Virus record (IMG/VR): IMGVR_UViG_3300046820_000826
Location: 1 to 34,434 of that record
DNA: 34,434 nucleotides
Strand: one strand, 5' to 3'
Source of the DNA: a virus
Of this stretch, positions 6 to 13,573 are shown in pieces. Position numbers and translations under genes: made by a program. The number at the start of each line of letters is the position of its first letter. Position 1 is the first letter of the stretch. Below the pieces are notes generated by a model, which was not told the DNA's origin, made no database searches, and saw only the letters and a program-made list of their open reading frames with translations.

Positions 6-49
6 CATAGGGTTAAGATTAAATTTGTATCACTTTTGTCAGACTTAGC
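6..49 (-). repeat. 44-bp inverted repeat, copy 1: shared leader / candidate attI-like site of array B
   Basis: The reverse complement of 6-49 is identical to 13530-13573, and similarity continues for about 15 more bases into the cassette ends. Read on the minus strand it ends exactly at the ATG of the small gene at the right end of the window (34132-34284), so it is that gene's 5' leader. On its other side it meets the outermost cassette end GTTACCTGC of array B. A TAnnTTTG box (TAAATTTG, 20-27) points on the plus strand into the array, against the cassette ORFs. With an upstream TTG at the joined right end (34275-34277) and an 18-base spacer it could be a promoter, but this is weak. Confidence 0.8.
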
Positions 50-73
50 AATTAGTTACCTGCAAGTGCTACT

Positions 74-123
74 GTGGAGCTTCTATTGAACATTCCGTTA
101 GAAATTTAAAATAAAAGCTCCAC
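74..123 (-). repeat. strong stem-loop inside cassette A5
   Basis: Arms 74-87 and 110-123 pair at 13 of 14 positions (GTGGAGCTT...), and an outer GTGC/GCAC pair lies at 66-69/125-128 beyond unpaired bases. It begins just after the stop codon of the 78-aa gene. It may be a transcription terminator or the attC-like stem of a decayed inner cassette. No clear T-tract follows, which argues against a classical terminator. Confidence 0.55.
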
Positions 124-425
124 CGCACCTGTGTTTACATTCCTCCAGATGATGGCTTGTCTGGAAATTTTTTAATGTTTTGGTCATACCATGAAGTGGT
201 AACAACCCAACCATCTACTAAAGATTTTTGCGCATACTTCATTTCTTCCATCATTAGTTTTTGGCTGATTTCTCCATCAGTTCCAGTGGTTGGCTCTGTG
301 CCTTTCATGTGGCGTTCGTGCCTTCTAATGGCAATTCCAAGCCATTTTTTTGCGTCTGTTGTATTTTCCATTATATTTATTTGTGGGTTTTACGAAGCCC
401 GCCCAAGGCTTTTATTTTAAATTTC
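101..425. repeat. 18-bp inverted repeat bracketing the A5 gene
   Basis: The 18 bases at 101-118 (GAAATTTAAAATAAAAGC) recur inverted at 408-425. They bracket the gene at 135-371. The left copy is preceded by CCGTTA, so GTTAGAAAT at 98-106 looks like a cassette-end box. The right copy has lost the matching AAC. This may be the relic of an older cassette nested in A5. Confidence 0.5.
135..371 (-). CDS. hypothetical cassette protein (78 aa, cassette A5)
   Basis: This is a hydrophilic 78-residue protein with no family I recognise. It has a basic N-terminal helix (KKWLGIAIRRHERHMKG), a middle acidic and methionine-rich stretch, and a tail with WVVTTSWYDQN and PSSGGM. The start is an ATG about 105 bases inside the cassette, so unlike its array neighbours it does not use a start codon in the preceding attC-like loop. 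The stop is followed at once by a strong hairpin (74-123). The antisense frame is open over much of the same stretch but encodes an implausible hydrophobic sequence. It is the cassette nearest the shared 44-bp site. Confidence 0.6.
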   Translation of the reverse strand: MENTTDAKKWLGIAIRRHERHMKGTEPTTGTDGEISQKLMMEEMKYAQKSLVDGWVVTTSWYDQNIKKFPDKPSSGGM

Positions 426-467
426 TTTAGTGTTCCAAATCAACATTCTGCTAAATGAACCGCACCA

Positions 468-564
468 GCAGGTAACAAGGTATTTGCAAAATTGCCCATC
501 AACCTTTGTGCTTAATTTGAAGTATCTGCAAGGGCAACTTCGCAAATACCCCACCGTTAGCGGT
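468..564 (-). repeat. attC-like site between cassettes A4 and A5
   Basis: The outer boxes are GCAGGTAAC (468-476) and GTTAGCGGT (556-564). The inner arms at 479-497 and 532-550 pair at 17 of 19 positions around a 34-base loop. Both mismatches are A-C on the plus strand and G-T wobbles on the minus strand, so the minus strand folds better. The site is 97 bp long, within the usual attC range. Confidence 0.75.
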
Positions 565-568
565 AATA

Positions 569-730
569 TTACCCGACAAAACTGAATCCGCATTTGCAAC
601 ATTTAGTGTAATGGTCATCAATATCTACCAAGTCATCACTTTTGCAAATCGGGCAATACTCACCGCTAACATCGGCTATAAGTAATGGCTGGTCTTGTGG
701 TTCATTTATGTTTTCTACTTCTAAATTCAT
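569..730 (-). CDS. zinc-ribbon cassette protein (cassette A4)
   Basis: The product has 53 residues from the ATG at 728-730; an in-frame GTG at 767-769 would give 66. The C-terminal half carries two CxxC pairs (CPIC and CCKC, about 20 residues apart), a zinc-ribbon pattern often found in small DNA- or RNA-binding proteins. The ATG lies in the loop of the preceding attC-like hairpin. The reading frame crosses the boundary box GTTAGCGGT, which is translated as DVSG, so about 20 N-terminal residues come from the recombination site. The cassette itself (556-670) is only 115 bp. The function is unknown. Confidence 0.6.
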   Translation of the reverse strand: MNLEVENINEPQDQPLLIADVSGEYCPICKSDDLVDIDDHYTKCCKCGFSFVG

Positions 731-796
731 TTTGTGTTTATTTAAAGTGAGTAGTTCTAAATCAGCCACTACTCATAGCCGTTTACCGTTGGCAGC
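662..796 (-). repeat. attC-like site between cassettes A3 and A4
   Basis: The boxes are ACCGCTAAC (662-670) and GTTGGCAGC (788-796). The arms at 673-691 and 763-781 pair at 17 of 19 positions (CGGCTATAAGTAATGGCTG against its near-complement). The mismatches become G-T wobbles on the minus strand. The loop holds the start codon of the zinc-ribbon gene. Confidence 0.77.
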
Positions 797-798
797 AA

Positions 799-969
799 TT
801 ATACAGCCACCCATTTACCGTGTTTAATACCAAAAATGACAGAGTTCAAGCCTTGTTGTTTGCCGATTTCTCGAAGATTAACCGCACGTTCAATGGTTAC
901 ACAATATTTCCAAAACTCTTTGCCATTTTTGTTGAGAATGTTTACCTTAAAATTGTTTACTCGTTCCAT
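799..969 (-). CDS. small hypothetical cassette protein (56 aa, cassette A3)
   Basis: This 56-residue basic protein begins MERVNNFKVNILNKNGKEFW and ends in a short hydrophobic GKWVAV. It sits inside the 206-bp cassette 788-993 with an ATG 16 bases from the cassette's 5' end. The stop codon is just before the closing box GTTGGCAGC. I recognise no family. The one-gene-per-cassette fit and protein-like composition support it as real. A longer overlapping plus-strand frame looks like a shadow. Confidence 0.55.
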   Translation of the reverse strand: MERVNNFKVNILNKNGKEFWKYCVTIERAVNLREIGKQQGLNSVIFGIKHGKWVAV

Positions 970-984
970 AATTATAAAATAAAT

Positions 985-1119
985 GCTGCCAACAAATGCT
1001 ATACAAAAGCGAAGCAGCGTTCCGCAATTGAAAGTTTGTGCATCTATTTATCATTTGTGCAAGGCTGAAAGGGAGTGCATCTTAACCCCTGCCTTCGTAT
1101 AGCGTCAGCCGTTATAAGC
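985..1119 (-). repeat. attC-like site between cassettes A2 and A3
   Basis: The boxes are GCTGCCAAC (985-993) and GTTATAAGC (1111-1119). The arms GCTATACAAAAGC (998-1010) and GCCTTCGTATAGC (1091-1103) pair at 11 of 13 positions. The two mismatches are G-T wobbles on the minus strand. The loop is about 80 bases. Confidence 0.7.
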
Positions 1120-1125
1120 AAGCTG

Positions 1126-1761
1126 CTACATTCCGTTTCCAAACAAGCTGTGTTGCTCATAATCTTTTTTAATTAAAATTTTTCCCACAGCACAATTAAG
1201 AATGTGAAGTCCTAACTCCGAATTAACAGCGTTTCTATCTTCCAAACTTTTATCATGGGCATGTTTCCCAGTTCCTACATATTCTTTCATCATTGTTCCT
1301 ATTTCGTTTTTAGGCATTTCAATTACGGGTATTTTAAAATTGCTCCAAATAAAGTGCCTGCCAATTTTAGTGTATTGTGGTAAAAATGGTTCGTAAAATG
1401 GTATTACATTTTCAACCATCCATAAGCCTTTAAAAAATTGGTTTAAGAATATTATCTCTTGCCACAATTTCATATCTGGGTATGTAGGCACTTTTCTTAT
1501 TGCTTGAGTAAAGTAATTAGTTCGGCTGTGAGTTGGGCAAGGTGGTGAAGTCCAAATGATATTAAACCGCTTGTAATTAAGCAATAAGTATTCGTGTGCA
1601 TCAGCTACAATTACAATATCATTTGGGTATCTTCTTTGATATTCAGCAGCAACTTTAGGATTAATTTCAACGGCTGTAATTTCGTATTCATCACCCCAAA
1701 GTTCTCGGTTTCCACCAATGCCACAATACAAGTTTAATATTTTAATTTTTTCTATTTCCAC
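1126..1761 (-). CDS. small cytosine-C5 DNA methyltransferase (cassette A2)
   Basis: The 211-residue enzyme has the core C5-methyltransferase motifs in order: motif I LNLYCGIGGN near residue 10 (SAM binding), motif IV SPPCPTHSR with the catalytic PC dipeptide near residue 75, and motif VI ENV near residue 118. The C-terminal target-recognition region is much shorter than in full-size Dcm-like enzymes (usually 300-420 residues), so specificity is unclear. The start is a GTG; no ATG precedes motif I. The gene fills cassette 1111-1839 and its stop lies 6 bases before the closing box. Phage methyltransferases usually protect the genome from host restriction. It is unrelated in detail to the second methyltransferase in array A. 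Confidence 0.85.
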   Translation of the reverse strand: MEIEKIKILNLYCGIGGNRELWGDEYEITAVEINPKVAAEYQRRYPNDIVIVADAHEYLLLNYKRFNIIWTSPPCPTHSRTNYFTQAIRKVPTYPDMKLWQEIIFLNQFFKGLWMVENVIPFYEPFLPQYTKIGRHFIWSNFKIPVIEMPKNEIGTMMKEYVGTGKHAHDKSLEDRNAVNSELGLHILNCAVGKILIKKDYEQHSLFGNGM

Positions 1762-1830
1762 GCTTCAAAATTTTTAATTAAAAAAAAGGTTTCGTTTTCA
1801 AATGAGCTTTATCTTTAATAACCGCAGCCA

Positions 1831-1889
1831 GCTTATAACAGCACCTAATAAACAGCAAGCCGATTTATTAGCTACAAAACGTTATGGGC
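1831..1889 (-). repeat. compact 59-bp attC-like site between cassettes A1 and A2
   Basis: The boxes are GCTTATAAC (1831-1839) and GTTATGGGC (1881-1889). The stem is AGC (1840-1842) plus TAATAAA (1846-1852) with TTTATTAGCT (1864-1873), which leaves the three bases ACC (1843-1845) extrahelical. Extrahelical bases on one arm are a hallmark of attC sites. The length matches the classic 59-base element. Confidence 0.75.
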
Positions 1890-2184
1890 AATGGCTCGGA
1901 CAAACCAAACCAGACCATCTAACAAGCCAATACGCAAAGCCGTAAAAACTTGGTTCGTATTTTGGTTTGGTTTCTTTCATGTTTGCATAATGCGTTTCCC
2001 ATTGCTCCATAATAGTATCAAGTAAATCCCGTGCTTCGGGCGTAATGCAACCCAAAGTTATTTGTATTCCATCTTTGCTTCCTGCGTAATTAAATCTGCT
2101 TCCGTGAAAGCCACTGCCCATAACATCGGCTAAAACTTGATTGCCTATATTAGTGTTGTTTTGAACTTCATTACTATTTTCCAT
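1882..2184 (-). CDS. hypothetical cassette protein (100 aa, cassette A1)
   Basis: The protein has 100 residues and no recognised family. The ATG (2182-2184) lies in the loop of the upstream attC-like hairpin. The frame runs through the R' box GTTATGGGC, read as DVMGSG, so the first 20-odd residues (Asn-rich NEVQNNTNIGNQ) belong to the recombination site. The cassette-specific part has a WETHYANMKE helix and ends in a tryptophan- and cysteine-containing tail. The TAA stop lies inside the closing R'' box itself, as in cassette 1 of array A. Confidence 0.6.
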   Translation of the reverse strand: MENSNEVQNNTNIGNQVLADVMGSGFHGSRFNYAGSKDGIQITLGCITPEARDLLDTIMEQWETHYANMKETKPKYEPSFYGFAYWLVRWSGLVCPSHCP

Positions 2185-2254
2185 GTTTATCTTATTTTGA
2201 AAGTTATCTGCATTTTATTCGGCAACTCAGTTTAGCCTAGTACCGTTACAATGC
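2116..2254 (-). repeat. attC-like site at the high-coordinate edge of array B
   Basis: The cassette box is GCCCATAAC (2116-2124). The arms 2128-2145 and 2221-2237 (GGCAACTCAGTTTAGCC) pair well, with one extra A on the left arm. The outer box is GTTACAATGC (2245-2254), whose complement contains the stop codon of the next gene. No partner for this outer box was found further right, so the array appears to end here. Confidence 0.65.
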
Positions 2255-2404
2255 TAATTTTTGAATATACTCAAACACTCCGTTCATATCTCTAAATGTT
2301 TTATGAGTTGTTTTAAGGTCTTTTCTTAGCGTAATGGTAAGTTTATACCTTTCGTCTTTTTTTCGCCCCGCATTTGGTCGTTTTCCGCCTCGTTTGTTTT
2401 GCAT
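2246..2404 (-). CDS. small basic GGKRPNAGRK protein (52 aa)
   Basis: The 52-residue basic protein begins MQNKRGGKRPNAGRKKDERY and continues with a KLTITLRKDLK strand-like segment, as in small phage DNA-binding proteins of ribbon-helix-helix type. The GGxRxxAGRK leader is common in phage-encoded proteins, but the exact role is unknown. The stop codon lies in the outer box of array B, so this gene is where the early operon meets the cassettes. A small palindrome (GTGCG...CGCAC, about 2412-2428) lies just upstream. Confidence 0.6.
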   Translation of the reverse strand: MQNKRGGKRPNAGRKKDERYKLTITLRKDLKTTHKTFRDMNGVFEYIQKLAL

Positions 2405-2447
2405 AAAAAATGTGCGTTACAGTCGCACCCCTGAGTTGGTTGTTATC

Positions 2448-2630
2448 TTATTTGACTTTAATTTCTGCCGTTTCAATATCTAAAAATGAATATAATTTAG
2501 GATTTTTTTTAGCTGAATCTATATGCCTTTGTATATCTCTTTTTGCAGAATCAATAAATGATTTTCCAATATAGGTTTTAAACATTTCTGCTCCATTTTT
2601 ATCGGTTAAATATATGATTGCTGTTTCCAT
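2448..2630 (-). CDS. hypothetical protein (60 aa)
   Basis: This 60-residue protein begins METAIIYLTDKNGAEMFKTY with an alternating strand pattern and then has a charged helix (SAKRDIQRHIDSAKKN). No family is recognised. It is the first gene behind the promoter at 2660-2667, about 30 bases from the -7 box. It forms an operon end with the GGKRPNAGRK gene before array B begins. Confidence 0.6.
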   Translation of the reverse strand: METAIIYLTDKNGAEMFKTYIGKSFIDSAKRDIQRHIDSAKKNPKLYSFLDIETAEIKVK

Positions 2631-2659
2631 AATATTTGTTTTTGTTGTTATTTCTTCTA

Positions 2660-2733
2660 CAAATATACGGCTACTTTTGAATTACGTAAACAAAAATCAA
2701 ATTATTTTTGTAATTTAGAATTAGTCTAAATAA
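2660..2733 (-). promoter_or_regulatory. promoter with distal palindromic operator
   Basis: The minus strand carries TATATTTG (2660-2667) inside AGCCGTATATTTGTA. The same core occurs upstream of the other early promoter at 9545. A degenerate copy of the phage-wide palindrome lies at 2711-2733 (half-sites near TTATTTAGAAT), 43 bases upstream of the box, and overlaps the 3' end of the preceding small gene. The fit to the Bacteroidetes TAnnTTTG consensus is exact; a -33 element is not clear. Confidence 0.6.
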
Positions 2734-2866
2734 AACCCCAAAATATCCAATCGATATACTGCTTTAATTCCTTAGCTTTTTGTGGGTTGGTTAGTAAATA
2801 TTTGTTGTAATCTTTTATTTTTTGGTCTAGTGTGTATGTTATAGTGCGTTTACTTTGTTTAGTCAT
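2726..2866 (-). CDS. hypothetical protein (46 aa)
   Basis: This 46-residue protein begins MTKQSKRTITYTLDQKIKDY and ends IDWIFWGFI. The ATG overlaps the stop of the ninG-like gene by 8 bases, which suggests translational coupling. The C-terminal hydrophobic stretch is too short for a convincing membrane anchor. The function is unknown. Confidence 0.5.
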   Translation of the reverse strand: MTKQSKRTITYTLDQKIKDYNKYLLTNPQKAKELKQYIDWIFWGFI

Positions 2867-3452
2867 TCTTAATCATTTGTAAGTATTTATTCTTAATCTC
2901 TATTAACTCTTCTTTAGTGTACTTATAGTTTCGTTTAACTATACTATCCGCTTCTAGTCCTTCGACAAATTCTTTTCCGTATCGGTTAACTAATCCTATT
3001 CTATACGCTGATAAATTACCCGAAAGATACATATTGCAATATGAATTACATTGTGCGTGGCAATTCCTTTCGTCGAATATTAAACCGCTATAAACGCCCG
3101 CTGGGAAATAATGGCCTCCGCTCCAATCTTTAGGGTTATGATTATTACAACTTATACAAGGTTTGCCACTGTCACGCATTCTAATCCACTTTTGAAACAC
3201 TTTTTTAGCTTCTCCTTCGTAGTCTGACAAAGTTTTAAGTTTCTCTCTTAAATCGCTTTTAAATGCATTATCGCTTTTTTTCTTGTTTTTTATCTTTAGG
3301 CGTTCAAACATAATTTTACCTACTTCATTTGTGGTATACCAATCGTAAAGGCAACTATCACAAATACCGTATTTTCTCTTATAGCTTTCTTTTCCACATC
3401 CGTAGCCTTTAGCTAATCCGTTGCCGTGGCAAGGTTTCTTTTTTAGTTCCAT
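2859..3452 (-). CDS. ninG: NinG / Rap-like recombination nuclease
   Basis: The 197-residue protein matches the lambda NinG (Rap) family, structure-specific endonucleases that cut branched recombination intermediates. Cysteine pairs near the N-terminus (CHGNGLAKGYGCG, CDSC) can bind zinc. The core has the family pattern CISCNN, then GGHYFPAG, then ERNCHAQCNSYCN, with conserved His and Asn of an HNH-like fold. It follows the primase-helicase in the early operon and would act with the Rad52-like annealing protein upstream. Confidence 0.85.
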   Translation of the reverse strand: MELKKKPCHGNGLAKGYGCGKESYKRKYGICDSCLYDWYTTNEVGKIMFERLKIKNKKKSDNAFKSDLREKLKTLSDYEGEAKKVFQKWIRMRDSGKPCISCNNHNPKDWSGGHYFPAGVYSGLIFDERNCHAQCNSYCNMYLSGNLSAYRIGLVNRYGKEFVEGLEADSIVKRNYKYTKEELIEIKNKYLQMIKND

Positions 3453-3454
3453 AG

Positions 3455-3598
3455 TTATTTTTTTAGTCGTTGTCTTATACTTCTAATAGTTCCTAATTTT
3501 ATTTTATCTACATACTCAATCGGTTTGCTATTTATTTTTCTGCACCAATTTTGTATTTTAATTTCATTTACTAAATATTCTGTTATTTTATCGCTCAT
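3455..3598 (-). CDS. hypothetical basic protein (47 aa)
   Basis: This 47-residue lysine-rich protein begins MSDKITEYLVNEIKIQNWCR and ends RQRLKK. It fills the gap between the primase-helicase and ninG genes with 9 and 2 intervening bases, which supports it as an operon member. No known domain. Confidence 0.5.
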   Translation of the reverse strand: MSDKITEYLVNEIKIQNWCRKINSKPIEYVDKIKLGTIRSIRQRLKK

Positions 3599-3607
3599 AA
3601 TTATAAT

Positions 3608-5416
3608 TTAAAAAGGTATAATATCGTTTTGATTATAAGTATTTCCAAAAGCATCCTCAGGCGTTATAATAGGAAATGGTACTAACTCCTGAACAAACTC
3701 TACTTCTTTTTGTTCTTTGCTTTTTAATAAGTTATGCAGTTGTGGATTTTGATGTCTAGGGTAATAACGTCCGCTAGGTTTATGATAATCAAACTCTACC
3801 ATTTCGCCAATAGTACCCTGAAAAGAATATTTAGTTTTTAGGTTTCTAAATGTACTATAACCATCATCCCCAAAGTATCTATAAATACAAAAACCGTCGT
3901 GAGTTTGGTTTCTAAAATCGGCACTACCTGAAACATCGTAAAGAGTTGGCTCATCATATACGCCCGCTTCTTTTTTCATTTTAGTAGGGTGCGCTATCAC
4001 AATTATTAAAACGTTATTTTGTTGTGCAAATTGTGTTAATCGTGAGAGTGTACGACTTATGTTTTCTCTTTCGGTACGGTTACCCGTAAACTCGACTTTA
4101 TTCCACGCATCTATTACAAAAATGTTTATTCCAAAACTAAATATTTGCTCTTTGAACTTTTCAAAAATCCAATCCCAATTCGCATACTCACCGTTTTCAG
4201 GACTTGTAAGGTAAAGTTTTTGGTTTGCCCAATTATGAAACTGCATAACCTCTAATTTACTACACCGCTCTGTTCCGTCAATCTCAAAGAAGTAGTTTTT
4301 GCCTATTACCTTTTGCACAAATGTACTCATATGTAATTCCATAGGTTGGTGTTCAGGACTAAAAAAACTCGCCTTAATATCGTTTTCAAGTAGGTAGTTT
4401 ACAACTAGCCATTCTGTAAAATTTGATTTGCCGTGTGAGGGTATTCCCGTACCTACAACCAAATGCCCAAACATAAGTTTGAAAATATTGTTTAGATTTC
4501 CGAAGTATTCATTTTTCAACTCTATGCAGTTAGGTAAGCCACTATCGTATAAATCGACCATTTTTTCCAATAGGTCTTCGGTTGTGAAACTTCCTGAAAC
4601 TGGGTACTTCTTTTTATTATGTATTGTTTTTTCAAGTACGCCCTCTATTAGGTCGCTATTTGCATCTTTATTGTCAAAAATAATCCTTTCACATCGGTAA
4701 CGCCCTAATCTTTGCGCTATCTTTTCAGCTACTATATTCCCGCTATTATCGTTATCGGTAGCAATATAGAATTTTTTAATATCGGTTAAATACTTTTCAG
4801 AATTAATCCAATAGTTATCATTATCATTTGCACCTGATGGCAAAGAAACTACATTCTTAATTCCTATTTCGTGAAGTGCCAATACATCAAACTCCCCCTC
4901 AACTATGTAGGCTTCATTTTGGCCAATAATAGAATTTATATTATAAAGAATAGGTTTACCATTTTTACTTTGTGTAAATTTCTTATCCCCTGAACGGTAC
5001 TTTTTGTTTACTAAAGTATCCCCCTCAAAGTAATTAAAAACAATATTATTAACCTCTTTTTGTAATTGTGGTTGGTATTGTGTCTCTTCGGTTATATTAA
5101 ACTCTTTAAGAGTGTATTGGTTTATTTTACGGCTTTCACAATATTTAACCAACTTATCCGATATTTTAGTATAGTTTTTCCACGTTTGCTCAGGTAGTGT
5201 ATAATTGTTTTGTACTATCGATTTTTGTACGCTATCACGAAAAAACAAGGCTTCACAACCAATATTGTAACATTTAGCCACTCCTATATCAAACCAAACC
5301 ATTAACGACTTATCCGCTTTATTTCGTCGAGTATCGGTACAAGCTGGGCATTTTAGTTTATGCCGTCCGCTATCTTTGTTCGTTTGGATTAAATCCCAAT
5401 TTTGTATATTACTCAT
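3608..5416 (-). CDS. TOPRIM primase - DnaB-like helicase (T7 gp4-like)
   Basis: The 602-residue replication protein has an N-terminal zinc finger (CPAC at 23-26, Cys49 and Cys54) and a TOPRIM primase domain (IVEGEFDVLALHEIG near 170-185 and ATDNDNSG near 220). The C-terminal RecA-like helicase has a Walker A variant VGTGIPSHGKSNF near 320 and a Walker B-like FVIDAWNKVEF near 430. T7 gp4 has the same primase-helicase order: it unwinds the fork and makes primers. The ATG overlaps the stop of the preceding replication gene by one base. Confidence 0.9.
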   Translation of the reverse strand: MSNIQNWDLIQTNKDSGRHKLKCPACTDTRRNKADKSLMVWFDIGVAKCYNIGCEALFFRDSVQKSIVQNNYTLPEQTWKNYTKISDKLVKYCESRKINQYTLKEFNITEETQYQPQLQKEVNNIVFNYFEGDTLVNKKYRSGDKKFTQSKNGKPILYNINSIIGQNEAYIVEGEFDVLALHEIGIKNVVSLPSGANDNDNYWINSEKYLTDIKKFYIATDNDNSGNIVAEKIAQRLGRYRCERIIFDNKDANSDLIEGVLEKTIHNKKKYPVSGSFTTEDLLEKMVDLYDSGLPNCIELKNEYFGNLNNIFKLMFGHLVVGTGIPSHGKSNFTEWLVVNYLLENDIKASFFSPEHQPMELHMSTFVQKVIGKNYFFEIDGTERCSKLEVMQFHNWANQKLYLTSPENGEYANWDWIFEKFKEQIFSFGINIFVIDAWNKVEFTGNRTERENISRTLSRLTQFAQQNNVLIIVIAHPTKMKKEAGVYDEPTLYDVSGSADFRNQTHDGFCIYRYFGDDGYSTFRNLKTKYSFQGTIGEMVEFDYHKPSGRYYPRHQNPQLHNLLKSKEQKEVEFVQELVPFPIITPEDAFGNTYNQNDIIPF

Positions 5417-6078
5417 TATGCGGGTGAATTGAAAAATGGTTTTACTTTTGTATTTTCTTGCTTATTTAACCAACTTATAAAATGACTTGCAAATTCAGTT
5501 TTATTTTGTTTAATATCAAATTTTAAATCTAAGTCAATAGCAAATGTATTTAGTTTTTCTTTAACCTGAATTAAAGTAAATTTCTTTTGGTTATTCATTG
5601 TAACAGATTCTAACCAACTTTGAGAATCTAATAACTCGGTTAAAAACTCTTTGTTCTTTGTATATTTGTTTATTTGTATATTGGTATCTTGTTTATCTAT
5701 ACTATCAATGCTTTCACTAGTGCTTTCACTTTGCTTTGTCGCGTGGTTTATAAATGCTTTATCAAGTGCTTTATCTACTGCTTTATCAAAATTTGATATA
5801 GCAACTATATTGCTACTGTATTGATTTTTTGATTTTTCTATCAACTCAATCAATCCAAATTCTACTAAATCATTAAGAGTAATAATATAAGTATTGTAGC
5901 TTCTTATCCCTATTGCATCTTTTGCCATTGTAGTAGGTAAACCAAACTTTTTTTTCCAACCCAATCTATTACAATGCTCAACTATAAAAAGATATAGTGC
6001 GCAATGGTTAGGTTTAATTTTTTCAGGGTTTTCAAATGCGTAATCCCAAAACGCTCTTGTTAATTTAAAATAGTCCAT
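5416..6078 (-). CDS. winged-helix replication initiation protein
   Basis: This 220-residue protein has an N-terminal winged-helix region (YFKLTRAFWDYAFENPEKI, then LGWKKKFGLPTTMAKDAIGI) of the kind seen in Bacteroidetes phage replication proteins, and a low-complexity Ser/Asp/Asn linker near 115-145. The C-terminal helical region (WLNKQENTKVKPF) resembles helicase-loader contact domains. Its place directly before the primase-helicase suggests an O-protein or DnaD-like role in origin melting or helicase loading. The start codon lies just after the T-tract of a terminator-like hairpin (6089-6128). Function is inferred from domain type and context. Confidence 0.7.
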   Translation of the reverse strand: MDYFKLTRAFWDYAFENPEKIKPNHCALYLFIVEHCNRLGWKKKFGLPTTMAKDAIGIRSYNTYIITLNDLVEFGLIELIEKSKNQYSSNIVAISNFDKAVDKALDKAFINHATKQSESTSESIDSIDKQDTNIQINKYTKNKEFLTELLDSQSWLESVTMNNQKKFTLIQVKEKLNTFAIDLDLKFDIKQNKTEFASHFISWLNKQENTKVKPFFNSPA

Positions 6079-6082
6079 AAAA

Positions 6083-6128
6083 ATAAAAAACCCCTTACGC
6101 CCCGCTTCTACTCGGTTTGTAAGAGGTT
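6083..6128 (-). terminator. nested-stem terminator upstream of the replication genes
   Basis: On the minus strand the outer stem pairs 6119-6128 with 6089-6098 (AACCTCTTAC with GTAAGGGGTT, one G-T wobble) and is followed by TTTTTTAT. An inner CCG/CGG pair lies at 6102-6104/6113-6115. The U-tract ends only a few bases before the ATG at 6078, so it may also attenuate the primase operon or shape its translation. Confidence 0.65.
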
Positions 6129-6215
6129 GTGGTTATGGTTAACCAATTTCTTAATAGTGGTAGAAGTTCACTAATACAATATTACAAAATGTTATTCAAA
6201 TAAACTAATTTTAAT

Positions 6216-6632: not shown

Positions 6633-6668
6633 TGTAAGTCATATAACTTAGTTAGGTAGTCTAAACCG

Positions 6669-7016: not shown

Positions 7017-7019
7017 AAT

Positions 7020-7960: not shown

Positions 7961-7981
7961 AATTTAATTTTTAAAGTTTGT

Positions 7982-8020
7982 CAAATTTACGAATTAAGTA
8001 GTTAAGAATGAAACTAAATA
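7982..8020 (-). promoter_or_regulatory. promoter of the recombination operon with degenerate operator
   Basis: TAAATTTG (7982-7989, minus strand) is an exact -7 box 21 bases upstream of the Rad52-like ATG. A degenerate match to the phage palindrome (GTTAAGAATGAAACTAAATA at 8001-8020) lies just upstream, at about the spacing seen in the late promoters. The palindrome match is weak. Confidence 0.5.
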
Positions 8021-8151
8021 GGCTTATTTGCGGTTACTTGTTTGCTAATTCCTTTGCTTATATACTTGAAATTTGTATGCGCCTTAACGCTCATTTTAGC
8101 GAGTTGTTTCAAGTGCCAATTTTCTTCTGCTATTGTTAGGTGTTTTTTCAT
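8014..8151 (-). CDS. hypothetical basic protein (45 aa)
   Basis: This 45-residue protein begins MKKHLTIAEENWHLKQLAKM. Its ATG overlaps the stop of the preceding coiled-coil gene in an ATGA arrangement, which supports translation. No domain is recognised. Confidence 0.5.
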   Translation of the reverse strand: MKKHLTIAEENWHLKQLAKMSVKAHTNFKYISKGISKQVTANKPI

Positions 8152-8393
8152 AACTCTTTGCCTTTCGTGTCTATAAATTTCACATCTTTTAAAATAATAC
8201 TTACTATTTTTTCAGAAACATTTTTCTTTTTGCATTCGCTTTCAATCATTAAAGGAATGGTATTATTAGTTTCTTTTTGTATTCTTTTGACCTCTGAATT
8301 AAGTTCGTTTACTTCCTCTTTTTTCTGCTCAAAATAAGCATTTATCTTATTACAAATTCTTTCGATTTCTTTTGTTTTTTCTTTTGGTGTCAT
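8148..8393 (-). CDS. coiled-coil hypothetical protein (81 aa)
   Basis: This 81-residue, strongly charged protein has a heptad-like region over about residues 5-45 (KINAYFEQKKEEVNELNSEV), which suggests a coiled coil. The tail is VKFIDTKGKEL. It starts 2 bases after the DNA-binding HTH gene ends and overlaps the next gene by 4 bases. The function is unknown. Confidence 0.6.
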   Translation of the reverse strand: MTPKEKTKEIERICNKINAYFEQKKEEVNELNSEVKRIQKETNNTIPLMIESECKKKNVSEKIVSIILKDVKFIDTKGKEL

Positions 8394-8395
8394 AA

Positions 8396-8653
8396 TTACA
8401 TAAAATTCAGTTTACTTTCTCTTATTTCCCACGTTGTATGAACGTAGATGATTTCTGGGTCGAATAATTTACCCTTATTAGGTTTTTTCAGCTTTCCTTT
8501 TAAAAACTCAATTTCATCATAGGTAAATCTATATTCACTCCCAAACTTTGTTATGTAGGGGACTAGATTATACTTTCGTGCCAATCTAGTTATTGTTGCC
8601 TTTGATACTCCAAATAATTGTGATATATCTTTGGTATTGTAAATCGCCCTCAT
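8396..8653 (-). CDS. MerR/excisionase-like helix-turn-helix protein
   Basis: This 85-residue protein has an N-terminal winged HTH of HTH_17/excisionase type: IYNTKDISQLFGVSKATITR (helix-turn-helix, residues 4-23), then YRFTYDEIEFLKG (wing and third helix). With no integrase in the genome it is more likely a transcription factor than an excisionase. It is one candidate for the protein that binds the repeated 23-bp palindrome. The ATG overlaps the preceding stop by 4 bases. Confidence 0.7.
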   Translation of the reverse strand: MRAIYNTKDISQLFGVSKATITRLARKYNLVPYITKFGSEYRFTYDEIEFLKGKLKKPNKGKLFDPEIIYVHTTWEIRESKLNFM

Positions 8654-8796
8654 AATACCTCAGGCTCTAACACTTCAAACTCGTTTATAAACTCTTGAAA
8701 TAAGTCTTTAGCTTTTGATAATTCACTTTCTAAGTAGGCGTTACGTTTCTGCAACGCCTCTATTTGTGCTTGTTGTAATTTTAGTAAATCGTTCAT
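8650..8796 (-). CDS. small coiled-coil protein (48 aa)
   Basis: This 48-residue, Leu/Glu/Gln-rich protein begins MNDLLKLQQAQIEALQKRNA and is probably a single amphipathic helix. It has 4-base ATGA overlaps with the genes on both sides, which is good evidence that it is translated. Function unknown. Confidence 0.55.
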   Translation of the reverse strand: MNDLLKLQQAQIEALQKRNAYLESELSKAKDLFQEFINEFEVLEPEVL

Positions 8797-8972
8797 AATC
8801 CTTTAATAATTTTAATTAATTTTTCAGTTTTTAAATTTAGTTTTAATTCTTGTTTAGGAGTTAATCCTCCTATAACTCCGAACATTGTTTGTAATTCTTT
8901 TAGGCTTTCTATTTCTCTTGCCAGCTTTTTTAGCTTTCTGACTTTAGCGGGGTCTATTACTGTTCCGTTCAT
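8793..8972 (-). CDS. small helical protein (59 aa)
   Basis: This 59-residue basic protein begins MNGTVIDPAKVRKLKKLARE and is mostly helical. It overlaps its upstream and downstream neighbours by 4 bases. No family is recognised; it is an early-operon gene. Confidence 0.55.
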   Translation of the reverse strand: MNGTVIDPAKVRKLKKLAREIESLKELQTMFGVIGGLTPKQELKLNLKTEKLIKIIKGL

Positions 8973-9184
8973 AATTTATCGTGTAAAATGTTAATAATGT
9001 CTTCTTCTTGGTCTTCGTTAAGAATAGGTAGCAAATTAATACAACTATCTAATGTAGCAACCTCTTTTAGAATGATATCGGGATACTCTGCTGGGGTTTC
9101 TCTAGTAGCTGGATAATGTTTACCATCTACTTCAAACCCTATTACTAAATCTACTGTTAAATAGTTTATTGTTTGATATTCCAT
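8969..9184 (-). CDS. hypothetical acidic protein (71 aa)
   Basis: This 71-residue acidic protein begins MEYQTINYLTVDLVIGFEVD with a beta-rich first half and ends in a helical NEDQEEDIINILHDKL. It shares one base with the preceding stop and four with the next start. It could be a small inhibitor or DNA mimic, but nothing in the sequence proves it. Confidence 0.55.
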   Translation of the reverse strand: MEYQTINYLTVDLVIGFEVDGKHYPATRETPAEYPDIILKEVATLDSCINLLPILNEDQEEDIINILHDKL

Positions 9185-9327
9185 TACTTCTTAGTTTTTA
9201 AATTTTCGCAAATTTTGTTAATTGCGTTGTCGATTTCGGTTATTTTTTCTATCGGTACTCTTCTTGTGATTGCTATTGTTGGGGCGTTCCAATTTGGTTT
9301 ACGCCCCGAAGTTGATTTTTTAGTCAT
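9184..9327 (-). CDS. small ribbon-helix-helix-like protein (47 aa)
   Basis: Starting at the ATG at 9325-9327, one base after the preceding gene's stop, this encodes 47 residues: a basic arm (KKSTSGRKPNWN), a strand-like TIAITRRVP and helix-forming segments IEKITEIDNAINKI. That strand-helix-helix order is the ribbon-helix-helix plan of small phage repressors. A start 48 bases further upstream would add a hydrophobic peptide that overlaps the previous gene and is unlikely. It is a candidate regulator. Confidence 0.5.
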   Translation of the reverse strand: MTKKSTSGRKPNWNAPTIAITRRVPIEKITEIDNAINKICENLKTKK

Positions 9328-9328
9328 A

Positions 9329-9508
9329 CTATAAACAATAAGGTGATGAAAAGTCAATAATGTAGGCTTGAACATTTTTAGCTACTCTTTCAGTAATTCT
9401 AAAAGATTGTAAATAAGATTGAATTGCTTTTCTAGCTTCTTTTTTTGTTTTAAAATCTGACACTTTAACCTCTGTTCCGTTTTCGATAAATCTAACTGAT
9501 GCTTTCAT
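9329..9508 (-). CDS. hypothetical protein (59 aa), first gene of the early operon
   Basis: This 59-residue protein begins MKASVRFIENGTEVKVSDFK and has a basic helix (TKKEARKAIQSYLQS). It is the first gene behind the early promoter at 9545-9552. No family is recognised. It heads a tightly packed series of eight small genes with 1-4 base overlaps or gaps. Confidence 0.55.
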   Translation of the reverse strand: MKASVRFIENGTEVKVSDFKTKKEARKAIQSYLQSFRITERVAKNVQAYIIDFSSPYCL

Positions 9509-9544
9509 AATATTTAATTTTAGTTTTTAGCTTTATTGCTGGTA

Positions 9545-9628
9545 CAAATATACGGCTATAATTCTAATTTCAAAATTAAAATACAATTATTTTTAGTTTT
9601 ATAGCTTATTTATAATCATTCTAAATAA
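9545..9628 (-). promoter_or_regulatory. early promoter with palindromic operator
   Basis: TATATTTG (9545-9552, minus strand) lies in the context AGCCGTATATTTGTA, shared with the promoter at 2660. An excellent copy of the 23-bp palindrome (half-sites TTATTTATAAT and TTATTTAGAAT around a central C) lies at 9606-9628, 53 bases upstream of the box. The spacing differs from the late promoters, so its effect here may be the opposite. No -33 TTTG at canonical distance is obvious. Confidence 0.6.
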
Positions 9629-9650
9629 CAACTATAAATTTATTAAATAA

Positions 9651-9695
9651 AAAACCCCTTAAACATTCAGTACCAATACTGCAATATCTAAGGGG
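9651..9695 (-). terminator. nested-stem terminator after the u-spanin gene
   Basis: The outer stem CCCCTTA (9655-9661) pairs with TAAGGGG (9689-9695), and on the minus strand a TTTTTTATTT tract follows. The loop holds a second hairpin CAGTA/TACTG (9668-9672/9677-9681). It ends the phosphoesterase - HNH - spanin transcript before the early operon starts. Confidence 0.75.
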
Positions 9696-9726
9696 AAACT
9701 TTAACCAAAAAACTAAATTATGAAAA

Positions 9727-10242
9727 TCAAAGATAACTATTCTTTTTTAAATAATACCAAAATCCCAAAGGAATTAATAAAAGTAATAACCACCACCAAT
9801 TAAACCCCTCACTCTCGGTATTTTTAACAGCTTCAACTCTTTTACTTTGCGTTACCGATTTGCTTTGCGTTTTAACCGCTTTTTGTTCGATTTGCGCAAC
9901 TTTAGTAGATTGGTTGGTAGTTACGTTTTTTTTAACTTTAGACTGCGTTAAAATAGTATTAAAATAACTTTTCCCGTTTACAACCATTGGCTTGCTATTA
10001 TCAAGAGGTTGTAGGGTAAGTTGATGGGTACTAGATTGGTCTACTACTTCTATATTACTATCTTCGGTTATAACAGTCTTACTACTATCTACTGTCGAGG
10101 CTTGCGCTTCGGTTTTAGTTGTTTCTGTTACGTTTGATTTGGCTACCTTTCGAGAGGCGCAACTACTGCATAAGATTAATACCGTTATAGCTATCGCTAG
10201 CCATATTAATATACTGTTTTTTTGTGGGTTGTTTGGTGTCAT
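9727..10242 (-). CDS. probable unimolecular spanin (u-spanin)
   Basis: The 171-residue protein has an N-terminal hydrophobic signal (SILIWLAIAITVLILC) with lipidation-type cysteines at 25 and 28. A Ser/Thr/Lys/Gln-rich periplasmic region follows (about 30-145), then a C-terminal membrane helix (WWWLLLLLIPLGFWYYL) with a short basic tail. A lipoprotein with a C-terminal inner-membrane anchor is the u-spanin plan (as in T1 gp11), which joins the two membranes in the last step of lysis. It lies more than 3.6 kb from the lysozyme, with array A in between. A bare structural lipoprotein is the alternative. Confidence 0.6.
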   Translation of the reverse strand: MTPNNPQKNSILIWLAIAITVLILCSSCASRKVAKSNVTETTKTEAQASTVDSSKTVITEDSNIEVVDQSSTHQLTLQPLDNSKPMVVNGKSYFNTILTQSKVKKNVTTNQSTKVAQIEQKAVKTQSKSVTQSKRVEAVKNTESEGFNWWWLLLLLIPLGFWYYLKKNSYL

Positions 10243-10271
10243 ATTTCTGTTTTAAAAGTTTTCTAATTATG

Positions 10272-10661
10272 TTATTTATTAAACCTACTATTCGCTCCTC
10301 GTTTACAATTTTCTGAAAATGTTATCCATTGGATATTATCTTCTGTATAGCCTTTTTTACTATCTATTCTGTCAATACTAGGGGTAAGTGTTCTTTTATA
10401 TTCTGAATTAATCCATTCATTGTATAAATTCCAAAAATTATCTTGAACTAAAGACCATTTATAAAATGTTTTTTTATCTAAAATTTCAAGTCCTAAATAT
10501 AAATGATTTTTATTTTTAGTAACACCGCTTACTCTAGATAACATATTTCGATATGTTCTAACCAAAAAACCTTTAGGTGTTTTCTCATACCGCTTAGTGT
10601 GTATGTTATTATTCAAGGCTCTTTGTTCTCTTTGATGCTTGTTTTTTTCTTCTTTAGTCAT
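10272..10661 (-). CDS. HNH-like endonuclease (homing-type)
   Basis: The 129-residue basic protein has a C-terminal block PSIDRIDSKKGYTEDNIQWI followed by CKRGANSR, the HNH-fold signature of small phage endonucleases (the Asp-Arg-Ile-Asp strand and the Asn-Ile-Gln helix). An N-terminal basic region (KHQREQRALNNNIHTKRYEK) could contact DNA. It may be a free-standing homing endonuclease, and so a selfish element, or act in packaging. It has its own promoter (10685-10692) between it and the phosphoesterase. Confidence 0.7.
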   Translation of the reverse strand: MTKEEKNKHQREQRALNNNIHTKRYEKTPKGFLVRTYRNMLSRVSGVTKNKNHLYLGLEILDKKTFYKWSLVQDNFWNLYNEWINSEYKRTLTPSIDRIDSKKGYTEDNIQWITFSENCKRGANSRFNK

Positions 10662-10684
10662 ATTTATATATTTATTGATTTATA

Positions 10685-10717
10685 CAAATATACAAATATT
10701 TTCGTGCTTAACACGAA
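10685..10717 (-). promoter_or_regulatory. promoter of the HNH-spanin unit and preceding hairpin
   Basis: TATATTTG (10685-10692, minus) lies 23 bases upstream of the HNH gene's ATG. A small stem TTCGTG/CACGAA (10701-10706/10712-10717) directly follows the phosphoesterase stop and may be a weak terminator whose AT-rich tail merges into the promoter. Confidence 0.5.
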
Positions 10718-10720
10718 TAA

Positions 10721-11743
10721 CTAAACAATTTTACCATTAATTATTCTAATATTATTAACGTGATACGTTCCGTCTTTATTTACTTTCACATGTGTAAAGC
10801 CATGATTCCAATTATTGAAAGGCATATACTCAGGCTCTAATCCACAAAGACAACCAGTTGACCACGTTGTCGTAACTTCGCCTCCTAAGTTCTTTTCGGA
10901 ATGCTCACTGCTACGGTGGTGATGCCCAATAATGCAAGATTGTTTAGCTTTTAGATATAATCCACGTGCGGGATTTACGGGAGGTGCGAAGCCTCCAAAC
11001 CATTCGTGTCCGTGCATAATAGCAAGTTTACCCGCATAAGCTATCTGTTTACTTCCAACTAACGTACATCCAAACTCCCTTAGTCTTAATATTTGTTCCA
11101 ATTTAAAATCGTCAATCCCTAATAATTCGGGTGCTTTAATTTTTAAGAAATTTTCCCAACGGTCGCAATGGTTGCCTATCTTAAAATAAATAGGGCATTT
11201 AAACGTATCTTGAAGCATTTTCAAAAACTGTCTAGTTAACTCTAACTCCCCCGCTAAATTTCTTAATCTAGGGTCTTTAATAAACCTACTACCGTGATAC
11301 ATATCTATTGTATCGCCGTTTAAATAAACCGCATTCACATTATTATCTAAACCGTATTGTAATGCCAATTCTAAGGCCTTATTATCTTGGTAAGGTATAT
11401 GTATATCCGATAAAACTAATATGTTATTTTGCCCTTTTGGTAGCTTAAACGGTTTAGTAGCCTCGTAGTCGCTTTCAGGAAGTTCAAATGATTTAGTAAT
11501 CATTTCCCTTTTTTCTTCTTTTGTTCGCTCCCCTACCTTTTCCATAGGCATCTTATTGCTTTTTTCGCCTCTGTAATATCTTATCGATGCCCGACAAGCA
11601 TCTAAGCTATTAAAACTAAGTGGATTTTCTTTGTAAAGTATTCGAGCTAATGCCATAGTTGAAGCCTTTGGCATACTTTCAATTAGCTTAACTGCTAACT
11701 CTTTTTTATAGGTTGCCCCATTTTGATTTCCTTTTACACTCAT
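10721..11743 (-). CDS. calcineurin-like metallophosphoesterase
   Basis: The 340-residue protein has the metallophosphoesterase motifs in order: SDIHIP (DxH) near residue 112, NGDTID near 142, GNHCDR near 190, MHGHEW near 244 and IGHHH near 273, enough to bind two metal ions. Residues 1-95 form a charged N-terminal domain (YKKELAVKLIESMPKASTMA). Phage enzymes of this type may process DNA ends, nucleotides or 2',3'-cyclic phosphates; the substrate cannot be told here. It is transcribed leftward from 11765-11772, divergent from array A. Confidence 0.85.
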   Translation of the reverse strand: MSVKGNQNGATYKKELAVKLIESMPKASTMALARILYKENPLSFNSLDACRASIRYYRGEKSNKMPMEKVGERTKEEKREMITKSFELPESDYEATKPFKLPKGQNNILVLSDIHIPYQDNKALELALQYGLDNNVNAVYLNGDTIDMYHGSRFIKDPRLRNLAGELELTRQFLKMLQDTFKCPIYFKIGNHCDRWENFLKIKAPELLGIDDFKLEQILRLREFGCTLVGSKQIAYAGKLAIMHGHEWFGGFAPPVNPARGLYLKAKQSCIIGHHHRSSEHSEKNLGGEVTTTWSTGCLCGLEPEYMPFNNWNHGFTHVKVNKDGTYHVNNIRIINGKIV

Positions 11744-11764
11744 AATCTATTTTTTAAAGTTTCT

Positions 11765-11828
11765 CAAAATTAGTAATTTTCTTTAATACTTAGACGTTTA
11801 GCGTATTATTTAGAATGAATATAAATAG
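11765..11828 (-). promoter_or_regulatory. divergent promoter region between phosphoesterase and array A, with operator copy
   Basis: TAATTTTG (11765-11772, minus strand) is a -7 box 21 bases upstream of the phosphoesterase ATG. A degenerate copy of the palindrome (left half TTATTTAGAAT exact, right half altered) lies at 11806-11828, between this gene and the plus-strand array A, so it could govern both directions. No confident plus-strand -7 box was found in the T-rich stretch 11829-11866. Confidence 0.5.
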
Positions 11829-11866
11829 TAAGTATTATTTTTTTGTATTACTTTTTTTTGTAGTAT

Positions 11867-11994
11867 TGCATAACGGATAGGTATTGGCGAAGTTGCCGAA
11901 CACAAAACTTCAATAGAATTACAAATGTTTAAATTAAAGATATAATGTCAAACGAAGCACAAAACGGCTTTTTTGCCAAACCGATGTTAGGCGA
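11867..11994 (+). repeat. attC-like site upstream of cassette 1
   Basis: The outer box is TGCATAAC (11867-11874) and the inner box GTTAGGCGA (11986-11994). The arms TTGGCGAAGTTGCCG (11884-11898) and CGGCTTTTTTGCCAA (11965-11979) pair at 11 of 15 positions, with two of the four mismatches being G-T wobbles on the plus strand. The start codon of the cassette 1 gene lies in the loop. Confidence 0.65.
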
Positions 11995-12289
11995 TGTTTT
12001 TATTCGTGTTTTCTGTGGAGTTTCCATTGAAGATAAGTGTAGGCATCAATTACATCCGTTAAACGAAGTAATACAAGCACAGAAATCATTGTCGTTAAAC
12101 AAATCAATGGACTTTTATTCAAACAGTCCTGACTTTGTTTCTGCTATAAAATATTTGTGTCAAGAAAAAGGTGTTAAATATGAATTTTTCTTGGATGGAG
12201 AAAGTACAGGCAATGATATAGAACCCATATTCGAGAATTTTAATAAGTCTTTTGATTTGTTGAATGAGTTGTGTCCAAATATCGCCTAA
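11945..12289 (+). CDS. hypothetical cassette protein (114 aa, cassette 1)
   Basis: The protein has 114 residues and no recognised family. The first 14 residues (MSNEAQNGFFAKPM) are encoded by the upstream attC-like hairpin, and the frame crosses the R' box as MLGDV. The cassette-specific part is acidic and helical, with EKGVKYEFFLDGESTGNDIE and a C-terminal helix FNKSFDLLNELC. The TAA stop lies inside the closing R'' box TCGCCTAAC. Because the next gene is a DNA methyltransferase it could have a defence-related role, but nothing in the sequence shows this. Confidence 0.6.
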   Translation: MSNEAQNGFFAKPMLGDVFIRVFCGVSIEDKCRHQLHPLNEVIQAQKSLSLNKSMDFYSNSPDFVSAIKYLCQEKGVKYEFFLDGESTGNDIEPIFENFNKSFDLLNELCPNIA

Positions 12290-12417
12290 CGTTTACAGAT
12301 TGGCGATGTTGGGGATTAGAAAGTACAAATGTTCAAATTATTACAAATGATATTAGAAAGCACAGAAGTTCAAATTAAGCACGAAAGCCCCAATATTGCC
12401 AATGTGGTGTTAGGTGC
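12282..12417 (+). repeat. attC-like site between cassettes 1 and 2
   Basis: This is the clearest attC in the window. R'' is GCCTAAC (12284-12290) and R' is GTTAGGT (12409-12415), both exact matches to RYYYAAC / GTTRRRY. The arms ATTGGCGATGTTGGGG (12299-12314) and CCCCAATATTGCCAAT (12388-12403) pair at 14 of 16 positions. Both mismatches are G-T wobbles on the plus strand. The loop of about 73 bases contains candidate start codons of the methyltransferase gene. Confidence 0.82.
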
Positions 12418-13498
12418 AGTTCCTGTTCACAAATTTCCCTACAATTGGAATTTAAAAGATACAAACTTTACAAAAGATAAAGGCAAAGTGTTTAGTTGTT
12501 TTGCTTGTGGTGGTGGTTCAACAATGGGATATAAATTGGCTGGATTTGACGTAATAGGACACAATGATATTGATAAAAAAATGATTGAAGTTTACAAAGA
12601 AAATCATAAACCAAAATATTCATTTTTAGAAAGTATTACAACTTTTGCTAAAAGAAAAGATTTGCCAAAAGAACTTTATGAACTTGATATTTTAGATGGT
12701 TCGCCACCTTGTAGCAGTTTTTCAATGGCTGGAAATAGAGAAAAAGACTGGGGCAAAGAAAAGGTATTTAGAGAAGGACAAGCTGAACAAGTTTTAGATA
12801 CGTTATTCTTTGATTTTATTGATTTAGCAAAAGAATTACAACCGAAAGTAGTTGTAGCTGAAAACGTAAAAGGTTTGCTATTAGGCGAAGCGAAAGAATA
12901 CGTTATTAAAATTTATAAGGAGTTTGATAGAGCTGGATATTATGTGCAACATTTTTTACTTGATGCTTCAAAAATGGGAGTGCCACAACGTAGAGAAAGA
13001 GTTTTCTTTATTGCACTAAGAAAAGATATAGCACAACCATTTTTATATTATGCAGATATGTTTACTGAATTGCCAAAAATTGATATGCAATTTAACGAAC
13101 CAACAATTACATTAAATGACATCAAAGACAATAGTGCTAATGATGAAAAATGCGAAATGACTGATGTAAAAAGAAACATCTGGAACAATAGAATTAATGG
13201 AGATAGTGATTTTAGCTGTACATTAGGGAGAATTGAAAACAGACCAAATTCAATGTTTAACAATAACTATTTATATGGAAATAAACCATTAAATACTATT
13301 ACATCAAAAAAGAATGATGTGCTTTTTGATGAACCAAGACATTGTAATTTTAACGAAAACACATCCGGGCAAACATATCCTAAAGATTATAACTTTTTAA
13401 ATATGCCTTATTTATATTTATTAGGAATGAGTGTGCCACCTGTAATGACTGCACAAATATCAACTAAAATATATGAACAATGGTTGTCGAAGTTGTAG
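12329..13498 (+). CDS. cytosine-C5 DNA methyltransferase (cassette 2)
   Basis: This is a full-length enzyme (389 residues) with motif I KVFSCFACGGGSTMGYKLAG near 53-72, motif IV GSPPCSSFSMAG near 130 (catalytic Cys), motif VI AENVKGLL near 175, motif VIII VPQRRERVFFIA near 215, a target-recognition region, and a C-terminal motif X-like LLGMSVPPVMT. The first 30 or so residues come from the preceding attC-like hairpin (boundary read as VVLGAVP). An ATG at 12350 in the same loop would shorten it by 7. It probably protects phage DNA from host restriction. Confidence 0.9.
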   Translation: MFKLLQMILESTEVQIKHESPNIANVVLGAVPVHKFPYNWNLKDTNFTKDKGKVFSCFACGGGSTMGYKLAGFDVIGHNDIDKKMIEVYKENHKPKYSFLESITTFAKRKDLPKELYELDILDGSPPCSSFSMAGNREKDWGKEKVFREGQAEQVLDTLFFDFIDLAKELQPKVVVAENVKGLLLGEAKEYVIKIYKEFDRAGYYVQHFLLDASKMGVPQRRERVFFIALRKDIAQPFLYYADMFTELPKIDMQFNEPTITLNDIKDNSANDEKCEMTDVKRNIWNNRINGDSDFSCTLGRIENRPNSMFNNNYLYGNKPLNTITSKKNDVLFDEPRHCNFNENTSGQTYPKDYNFLNMPYLYLLGMSVPPVMTAQISTKIYEQWLSKL

Positions 13499-13529
13499 AT
13501 GCGTCTTTTGGAATTGCACCTAACTAATC

Positions 13530-13573
13530 GCTAAGTCTGACAAAAGTGATACAAATTTAATCTTAACCCTATG
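13530..13573 (+). repeat. 44-bp inverted repeat, copy 2: shared leader / candidate attI-like site of array A
   Basis: This is identical to the reverse complement of 6-49. It runs from six bases after the last cassette box (GCACCTAAC) to the ATG of the ribbon-helix-helix gene at 13571, so it serves as that gene's leader. Bases 13525-13529 are also similar to the array B side. The minus strand carries TAAATTTG (13552-13559) pointing back into the array. The same sequence at two unrelated loci, each time between a cassette array and a start codon, points to a common insertion site. Confidence 0.8.

Follow-up and report, generated by a model that had tools for sequence, protein, structure and literature searches.

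Modules of the dif type, moved by XerCD, are flanked by sites in which two arms of ∼11 bp surround a 6-bp spacer. In integrons with an IntI recombinase, such as that of Vibrio cholerae (structure 2A3V), a tyrosine recombinase inserts cassettes carrying an attC site next to an attI site, at G|TTRRRY (the bar marks the crossover). Phages have been reported to contain clusters of attC sites without an integrase (CALINs; Qi et al. 2023, PMC9892861). Here we describe a viral DNA stretch of 34,434 nucleotides (nt), IMG/VR record IMGVR_UViG_3300046820_000826 (hereafter the window), in which a 44-bp sequence is present in two inverted copies that each head an array of cassettes. The evidence presented below makes it very probable that this repeat constitutes the constant half of an attI site belonging to the phage, and that the phage is a non-autonomous cassette platform that would be served by a recombinase in trans.

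Integrase-less attC arrays and methyltransferase cargo are features that the window shares with the published phage CALINs, and with at least two attC sites and no integrase it is a CALIN itself. Clusters of this kind are therefore already known, but the window is a CALIN that has its own attI sites; the part of the published report available to us describes neither an attI of a Bacteroidetes phage, nor recurrent single-cassette insertions, nor an own integrase. The system shares with IntI integrons the association of tyrosine recombinase, attI and attC cassettes and the insertion next to attI. It differs from them in that the linked recombinases have 23-24 residues where IntI has ∼64, that the open reading frames (ORFs) of the phage cassettes are reversed, and that the window contains no such recombinase. 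The window hence functions like an integron platform and is not a canonical integron, because it departs from that type in the integrase, in the extra helix of this enzyme and in the direction of the ORFs. Compared with XerCD modules, we found one fixed site and long hairpin attCs instead of paired short dif-like sites. An integron-like subgroup of the simple tyrosine recombinases has also been described, for whose insertion-less members the part of the paper available to us reports no attI, cassette arrays or phage clade (PMC8138268). A literature search, outside of which most subscription papers and preprints fell, returned no phage attI of the window kind, no reversed phage cassettes and no helix-less phage integrase clade with arrays.

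The record closes into a circle of ∼34,276 nt, as bases 1-158 recur at 34277-34434, although IMG/VR lists it as linear. This 158-nt terminal overlap has two mismatches, at positions 18 and 31, which both fall within the 44-bp repeat, and it is exact from base 32 onward (127 nt). The overlap copy of the first repeat (34282-34325) thus differs from 6-49 at 2 of the 44 bases, and of the two resulting readings of site A one is 42/44 identical to site B. Direct comparison bore out the claim of a preliminary description of this DNA that 6-49 and the inverted 13530-13573 are identical. With its flanks the repeat extends over 61 nt at 95% identity (5-65 and 13514-13574). Among the exact inverted repeats of the genome the longest measures 45 nt; in 20 doublet shuffles of the window the maximum was 14-17 nt. 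In agreement with that description, each copy is bordered on one side by the ATG start of a small gene (at 34284 on the minus strand and at 13571 on the plus strand) and on the other by a G|TTA followed by cassettes. An assembly artefact was ruled out, both copies being internal on the circle and the family to which they belong widespread. An Rfam search returned no family.

Read from the two sites, the arrays contain about six (array A) and two (array B) cassettes, every internal stem is paired with a cassette, and the first cassette of each array begins with sequence complementary to its own R''. The cassettes end in imperfect palindromic attCs with R'' and R' boxes, one of those in the window having been recognized by eye. 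The orientation of such attCs was deduced from a mechanical R''-stem-R' search with free spacer lengths, in which the spacer pairs (1,5) and (5,1) gave 50 and 52 matches and the next bin 17. The attCs are thus asymmetric, with a 1-nt spacer after R'' and a 5-nt spacer before R'. Chromosomal arrays of Bacteroidia, read from the side of the recombinase, show the same asymmetry with the same polarity relative to the site. The order constant site, cassette, stem that had been proposed for the window is therefore supported by an attC polarity matching that of chromosomes in which attI lies beside the recombinase, and there is no need to suppose that the last cassette of each array lacks its stem.

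The preliminary description had counted seven cassette ORFs pointing toward the site; this holds for all eight candidates, six on the minus strand in array A and two on the plus strand in array B. In a canonical integron ORFs run from attI toward attC, and it had been noted that the window departs from this. The reversal is real, but it is not peculiar to this phage and is the rule in phages of this type: 98 ORFs were reversed, 11 forward and 29 unscored at IMG/VR loci, compared with 3, 17 and 8 at chromosomal loci, where the three reversed cases represent one place fetched three times. After de-duplication and addition of cultured phages, 93 of the 107 scored phage ORFs were reversed (14 forward, 31 unscored), and the loci around phage recombinases gave 136 reversed, 16 forward and 34 unscored. 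At 1882, 2246 and 12289 the boundary TTA provides the TAA stop of the reversed ORF, which places the recombination point inside or beside the stop codon.

To gather relatives, 45 loci were collected by means of primase and phosphoesterase neighbors. One of them (L034) has the gene order of the window, that is lysozyme, small gene, site, array and phosphoesterase, and another (L035) has two copies of the site, each heading an array. The search pattern TTTATAGCGNNTAGCNNNNAGTTA was derived from these relatives. The layout TTTATAGCG, 11 nt, G|TTA was matched in 45 IMG/VR stretches. A genome collection of 84,980 species yielded only six matches of the pattern, five in three Bacteroidetes metagenome-assembled genomes (MAGs) and one in Vibrio; the latter lies inside a coding region and is probably due to chance. 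Sites with identical upstream DNA carry different cassettes downstream: among 40 distinct sites there are five pairs that match without exception over the 40 nt preceding G|TTA and have 6-12 mismatches in the 16 nt that follow it. The preliminary description would have been contradicted by relatives having the repeat without variable DNA at the GTT boundary. We found the opposite, namely DNA that is constant up to G|TTA and variable beyond it. In addition, the start of the cassette is complementary to a downstream R'' at 30 of 42 viral sites.

Insertions could be read directly in cultured phages. The site is constant among six Flavobacterium phages, which have five forms of DNA after it. Phage FPSV-D35 has the sequence of FPSV-D15 with a single additional cassette of 390 nt placed exactly at the site: the first 236 nt are common to both, and the sequences are then identical after a 390-nt shift over the compared 4.8 kb. 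The inserted cassette consists of a TTA start, a reversed ORF, GTGATAAC, a 1-nt spacer, a stem, a 5-nt spacer and G. FPSV-D15 would not have arisen from FPSV-D35 by homologous recombination between attCs, because such an exchange would delete the other cassette. A second and even clearer case is provided by Polaribacter phage Freya, whose genomes measure 44.0-48.9 kb and encode 66-78 ORFs, and for which a text search of the available part of the original paper found neither the word integron nor the word cassette (PMC8776804). Its integrase gene is 32-34% identical to the recombinases linked to the sites (see below). Parts of seven of the ten Freya records were compared, and the isolates differ by insertions at one nucleotide in the region before the integrase gene. 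Thus, Freya_10 is Freya_9 plus 307 nt, Freya_6 is Freya_5 plus 472 nt, Freya_9 is Freya_5 plus 2,891 nt and Freya_10 is Freya_1 plus 4,942 nt. Flanks are identical in the compared parts, with a minimal shared GTT at the joint, which is always G|TT. The ten record lengths (43,978; 44,820 in three isolates; 45,722; 46,194 in two; 48,018; 48,613; 48,920) are sums of steps of 842, 902, 472, 2,891 and 307 nt, Freya_8 being placed by arithmetic only. Insertion at G|TT next to attI is hence seen when near-isogenic phages among the relatives are compared, and is predicted for the window itself. Judged by these comparisons, the sites form a family, variability begins at G|TTA and cultured relatives carry clean single insertions.

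Recombinases are linked to such sites elsewhere. In one of the MAGs (G003) the gene for a 401-amino-acid tyrosine recombinase has a site with forward cassettes immediately after it. Relatives of this enzyme (E up to 1e-40) are present in 103 of 198 Bacteroidia genomes, of which only one contains a canonical integron integrase above the cut-off. In 24 of 30 chromosomal loci the motif TA[TC]A[AT]NNNA-GTT[AG] stands 83-110 nt beyond the recombinase match, against a chance expectation of 0.009 per 260 nt, but the motif was derived from those same loci. The chromosomal recombinases (for example L120:303-1508) have an additional N-terminal stretch of ∼120 residues that matches no Pfam family and is absent from the phage ones. 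Among the phages, a relative of the window (L019) encodes a 268-amino-acid homolog whose start codon abuts site and array, and IMG/VR yielded 91 relatives of this type, the contigs that carry them being as long as 362 kb. We analyzed 65 of 80 recombinase loci; the other 15 (L171-L173, L178, L179, L183, L193-L195, L203, L215, L220, L226, L227 and L238) were partial matches or mostly had little sequence before the gene. In 53 of the 65 loci an oriented stem lies no more than 2.5 kb from the recombinase gene, on the side of its start codon. The two attC polarities were represented by 164 and 4 stems on this side, and by 4 and 7 on the other. Two IMG/VR contigs (L066/L212 and L068/L213) combine a window-type site with a recombinase that has its own array.

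The phage enzymes cluster together (support 98/99) and are separated from the chromosomal enzymes in a tree with 107 rows, whose root is uncertain. Of 112 sequences, 107-108 retain the catalytic residues (columns Arg, His, Arg, His and Tyr). The linked recombinases score below the TIGR02249 cut-off, and in 104 of the 112 only 23-24 residues separate two conserved blocks that are ∼64 residues apart in the Vibrio IntI structure (2A3V), which indicates that the extra (I2) helix of IntI is missing. This helix has been tied to single-strand recombination (PMC7790495 and PMC9024848, in the parts available to us). An AlphaFold model of a phage recombinase, for which 17 recombinases were aligned, was poor (mean predicted local distance difference test score 74, predicted template modeling score 0.51), so that the absence of the helix from the phage enzymes is read from the alignment; the best PDB matches of the model were XerA, an archaeal Xer, followed by IntI (2A3V). 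Together these results support the attI-like site of the preliminary description, except that the associated recombinases, lacking the extra helix, are not canonical IntI. On the same comparative grounds, attC polarity and reversed ORFs are features of the phage arrays, and a recombinase is linked to site and array elsewhere.

In the reading that we favor, a tyrosine recombinase would join a circular cassette, via its attC, to the double-stranded phage site between G and TTA, so that the newest cassette would end up next to the site and each cassette would have the layout TTA, opposite-strand ORF, R'', stem, G. As the genome has two sites and arrays and no such recombinase, insertion and excision would take place in trans, through an enzyme from the host or from a co-infecting phage, most likely of the Xer/IntI-like clade that accompanies such sites on Bacteroidia chromosomes and in the genomes of other phages. 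The substrate may be a folded single-stranded attC; as to the use of its bottom strand, what is observed is the sequence asymmetry. The ORF strand reads through the site into the adjacent phage gene, and phage transcription could then express the cassette: since the ORFs run toward the site, they are co-directional with that gene and probably read from upstream phage promoters. Trans recombination by an integrase has been shown for some phage attCs; IntI1 recombined an attC from Polaribacter phage P12002L with attI1, on the bottom strand only, and divergent attC directions in this phage were remarked on (PMC9892861, in the available part). Stems of the window attC type lie beside two methyltransferase ORFs of P12002L. 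They are presumably the sites used in the published assay, and this suggests that stems of the window type may work as attC.

Several observations weigh against this reading. The site of the window deviates from the common TTTATAGCG block, and an empty form of that site was not encountered, its 18-nt core being without exact match in IMG/VR. The attC detector produced 9 matches in shuffled DNA against 80 in real DNA (27 loci), and most Freya inserts failed it, just two Freya stems having passed with both a good score and the orientation expected. An R'' partner was not found at 12 of the 42 viral sites, two of which had less than 115 nt of sequence. In the window itself, the ORF heuristic scored one cassette as same, one as reversed and two as none; this outcome results from a slightly longer opposite-strand frame that overlaps ORF 135-371. 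Finally, dispersed sites occur in three MAGs, and in two of these, which may be incomplete, the chromosomal recombinase has no close homolog (best 37-39%).

It is conceivable, but unlikely, that the same platform is served in the window by a canonical host IntI or by host XerCD. The ability of IntI1 to recombine phage attCs, including one of P12002L, would fit this, as would the two MAGs just mentioned and the fact that no recombinase of the clade was found in the window, in the regions examined of the Flavobacterium phages or in those of the P12002 phages. The rarity of canonical IntI in Bacteroidia relative to the new family, and a site layout that matches the attI beside that family, argue for the latter. 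We give very little credence to the idea that the repeat is a mere duplicated phage promoter or leader and that homologous or illegitimate recombination brought in ready-made arrays. Differences of a single cassette by the site, with clean junctions at G|TT, occur in two distinct groups of cultured phages, stem-stem exchange would delete an intervening cassette and not the site-proximal one, and the same layout is present beside recombinase genes; these facts outweigh the location of the site in the 5' region of a small gene, the near-identity that stems within one phage can reach, which makes them a substrate for homologous exchange, and the proposal of such routes for phage CALINs (PMC9892861, in the part available). 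If each array had its distal end at the repeat, and its last cassette had lost the stem, the usual ORF-then-attC order would be restored, but this reading is hardly credible, as it requires the same loss at both window arrays, at L034 and at dozens of other sites, and is contradicted by attC polarity and by the insertion point in FPSV-D35 and Freya.

The cargo of the phage cassettes was scanned with Pfam and PADLOC, which returned methyltransferases and little else. Among 90 of the 93 reversed phage ORFs (at least 55 amino acids), ten match N6/N4 DNA methylases and one each the C5, D12 and Mom families. Pfam likewise identified a C5 methylase among the cassette ORFs of the window, the rest giving weak or no matches. 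Methyltransferase cargo likely serves as protection against restriction, from which the phage would benefit. We think it probable that a separate class of integrons, with Xer-like, helix-less recombinases, is common to the Bacteroidota and the phages that infect them. Cassettes would be forward on chromosomes and reversed in phages with a single integrase clade; phages of the window type would be non-autonomous attI platforms that use enzymes of the host or of co-infecting phages, and the cassette pool would circulate as quick-change anti-restriction cargo. If true, phages would have a means of their own for acquiring genes singly at a constant position, and many of their small accessory genes could be explained by it. 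The helix-less linked recombinases raise the question whether the extra helix is needed for the use of attC, and ten Freya isolates on one cultured host make this testable now.

The features of the window are listed in Table 1. The gene content, with terminase and primase/helicase, is that of a tailed phage, and the phage is one of a Bacteroidetes-type host. No integrase gene adjoins the sites in the window, where they border on other small genes. A small gene related to that at 13571 is found upstream of most phage sites, and relatives of it are also encoded by phages of Flavobacterium psychrophilum and by Polaribacter phage P12002S.

Table 1. Sites, cassettes and adjoining genes of the window. 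Boundaries are G55|T56, 556, 788, 1111, 1881 and 2245 (array A, plus strand, from site A) and 13524, 12290 and 11874 (array B, minus strand, from site B); stems 987-1117 and 1833-1887 were placed partly by eye.
Feature	Position	Strand	ORF	attC	Remarks
attI-like site A	6-58	+			44-bp constant part 6-49, AATTA, G|TTA; putative crossover G55/T56
Site A, second reading	34282-34334	+			in terminal overlap; two base differences
attI-like site B	13521-13573	-			constant part 13530-13573; G|TTA at 13524-13521; putative crossover 13524/13523
Cassette A1	56-556	+	135-371, minus	470-562	
Cassette A2	557-788	+	569-769, minus	664-794	ORF start inside attC
Cassette A3	789-1111	+	799-969, minus	987-1117	attC by eye, under detector threshold
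Cassette A4	1112-1881	+	1126-1761, minus	1833-1887	weak DNA methyltransferase match (phrog_363)
Cassette A5	1882-2245	+	1882-2184, minus	2118-2251	stop codon is boundary TTA
Probable cassette A6	2246-2420	+	2246-2404, minus		distal boundary of array A tentative
Cassette B1	12290-13523	-	12329-13498, plus	12284-12415	C5 DNA methyltransferase
Cassette B2	11874-12289	-	11945-12289, plus	11868-11992	stop codon is boundary; weaker attC score
Small gene at site B	13571-13753	+			phrog_25647, weak transcriptional-repressor match
Small gene at site A	34132-34284	-			without family match

At four viral sites (L053, L064, L075 and L085) the DNA after the site is near-identical and R'' was not found; upstream of them a terminator-like hairpin takes the place of the usual small gene. 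These sites possibly carry a fixed or decayed cassette. The MAG sites (L110-L119, in G001-G003) are dispersed over the chromosomes and have the form TTTATAGCG..TTAGC..G|TTA or near variants of it; with up to two mismatches allowed there are 4, 3 and 3 of them per genome, and none in the control. Their cassette ORFs run away from the site, and no recombinase was seen beside them. When the first 25 kb of the window were compared with phages by megablast, only the methyltransferase cassette and one short match were found. The methyltransferase of cassette B1 (12428-13498) is 87.6% identical over 670 nt to a gene of Flavobacterium phage tooticki, which itself bears reversed cassettes with methyltransferases.

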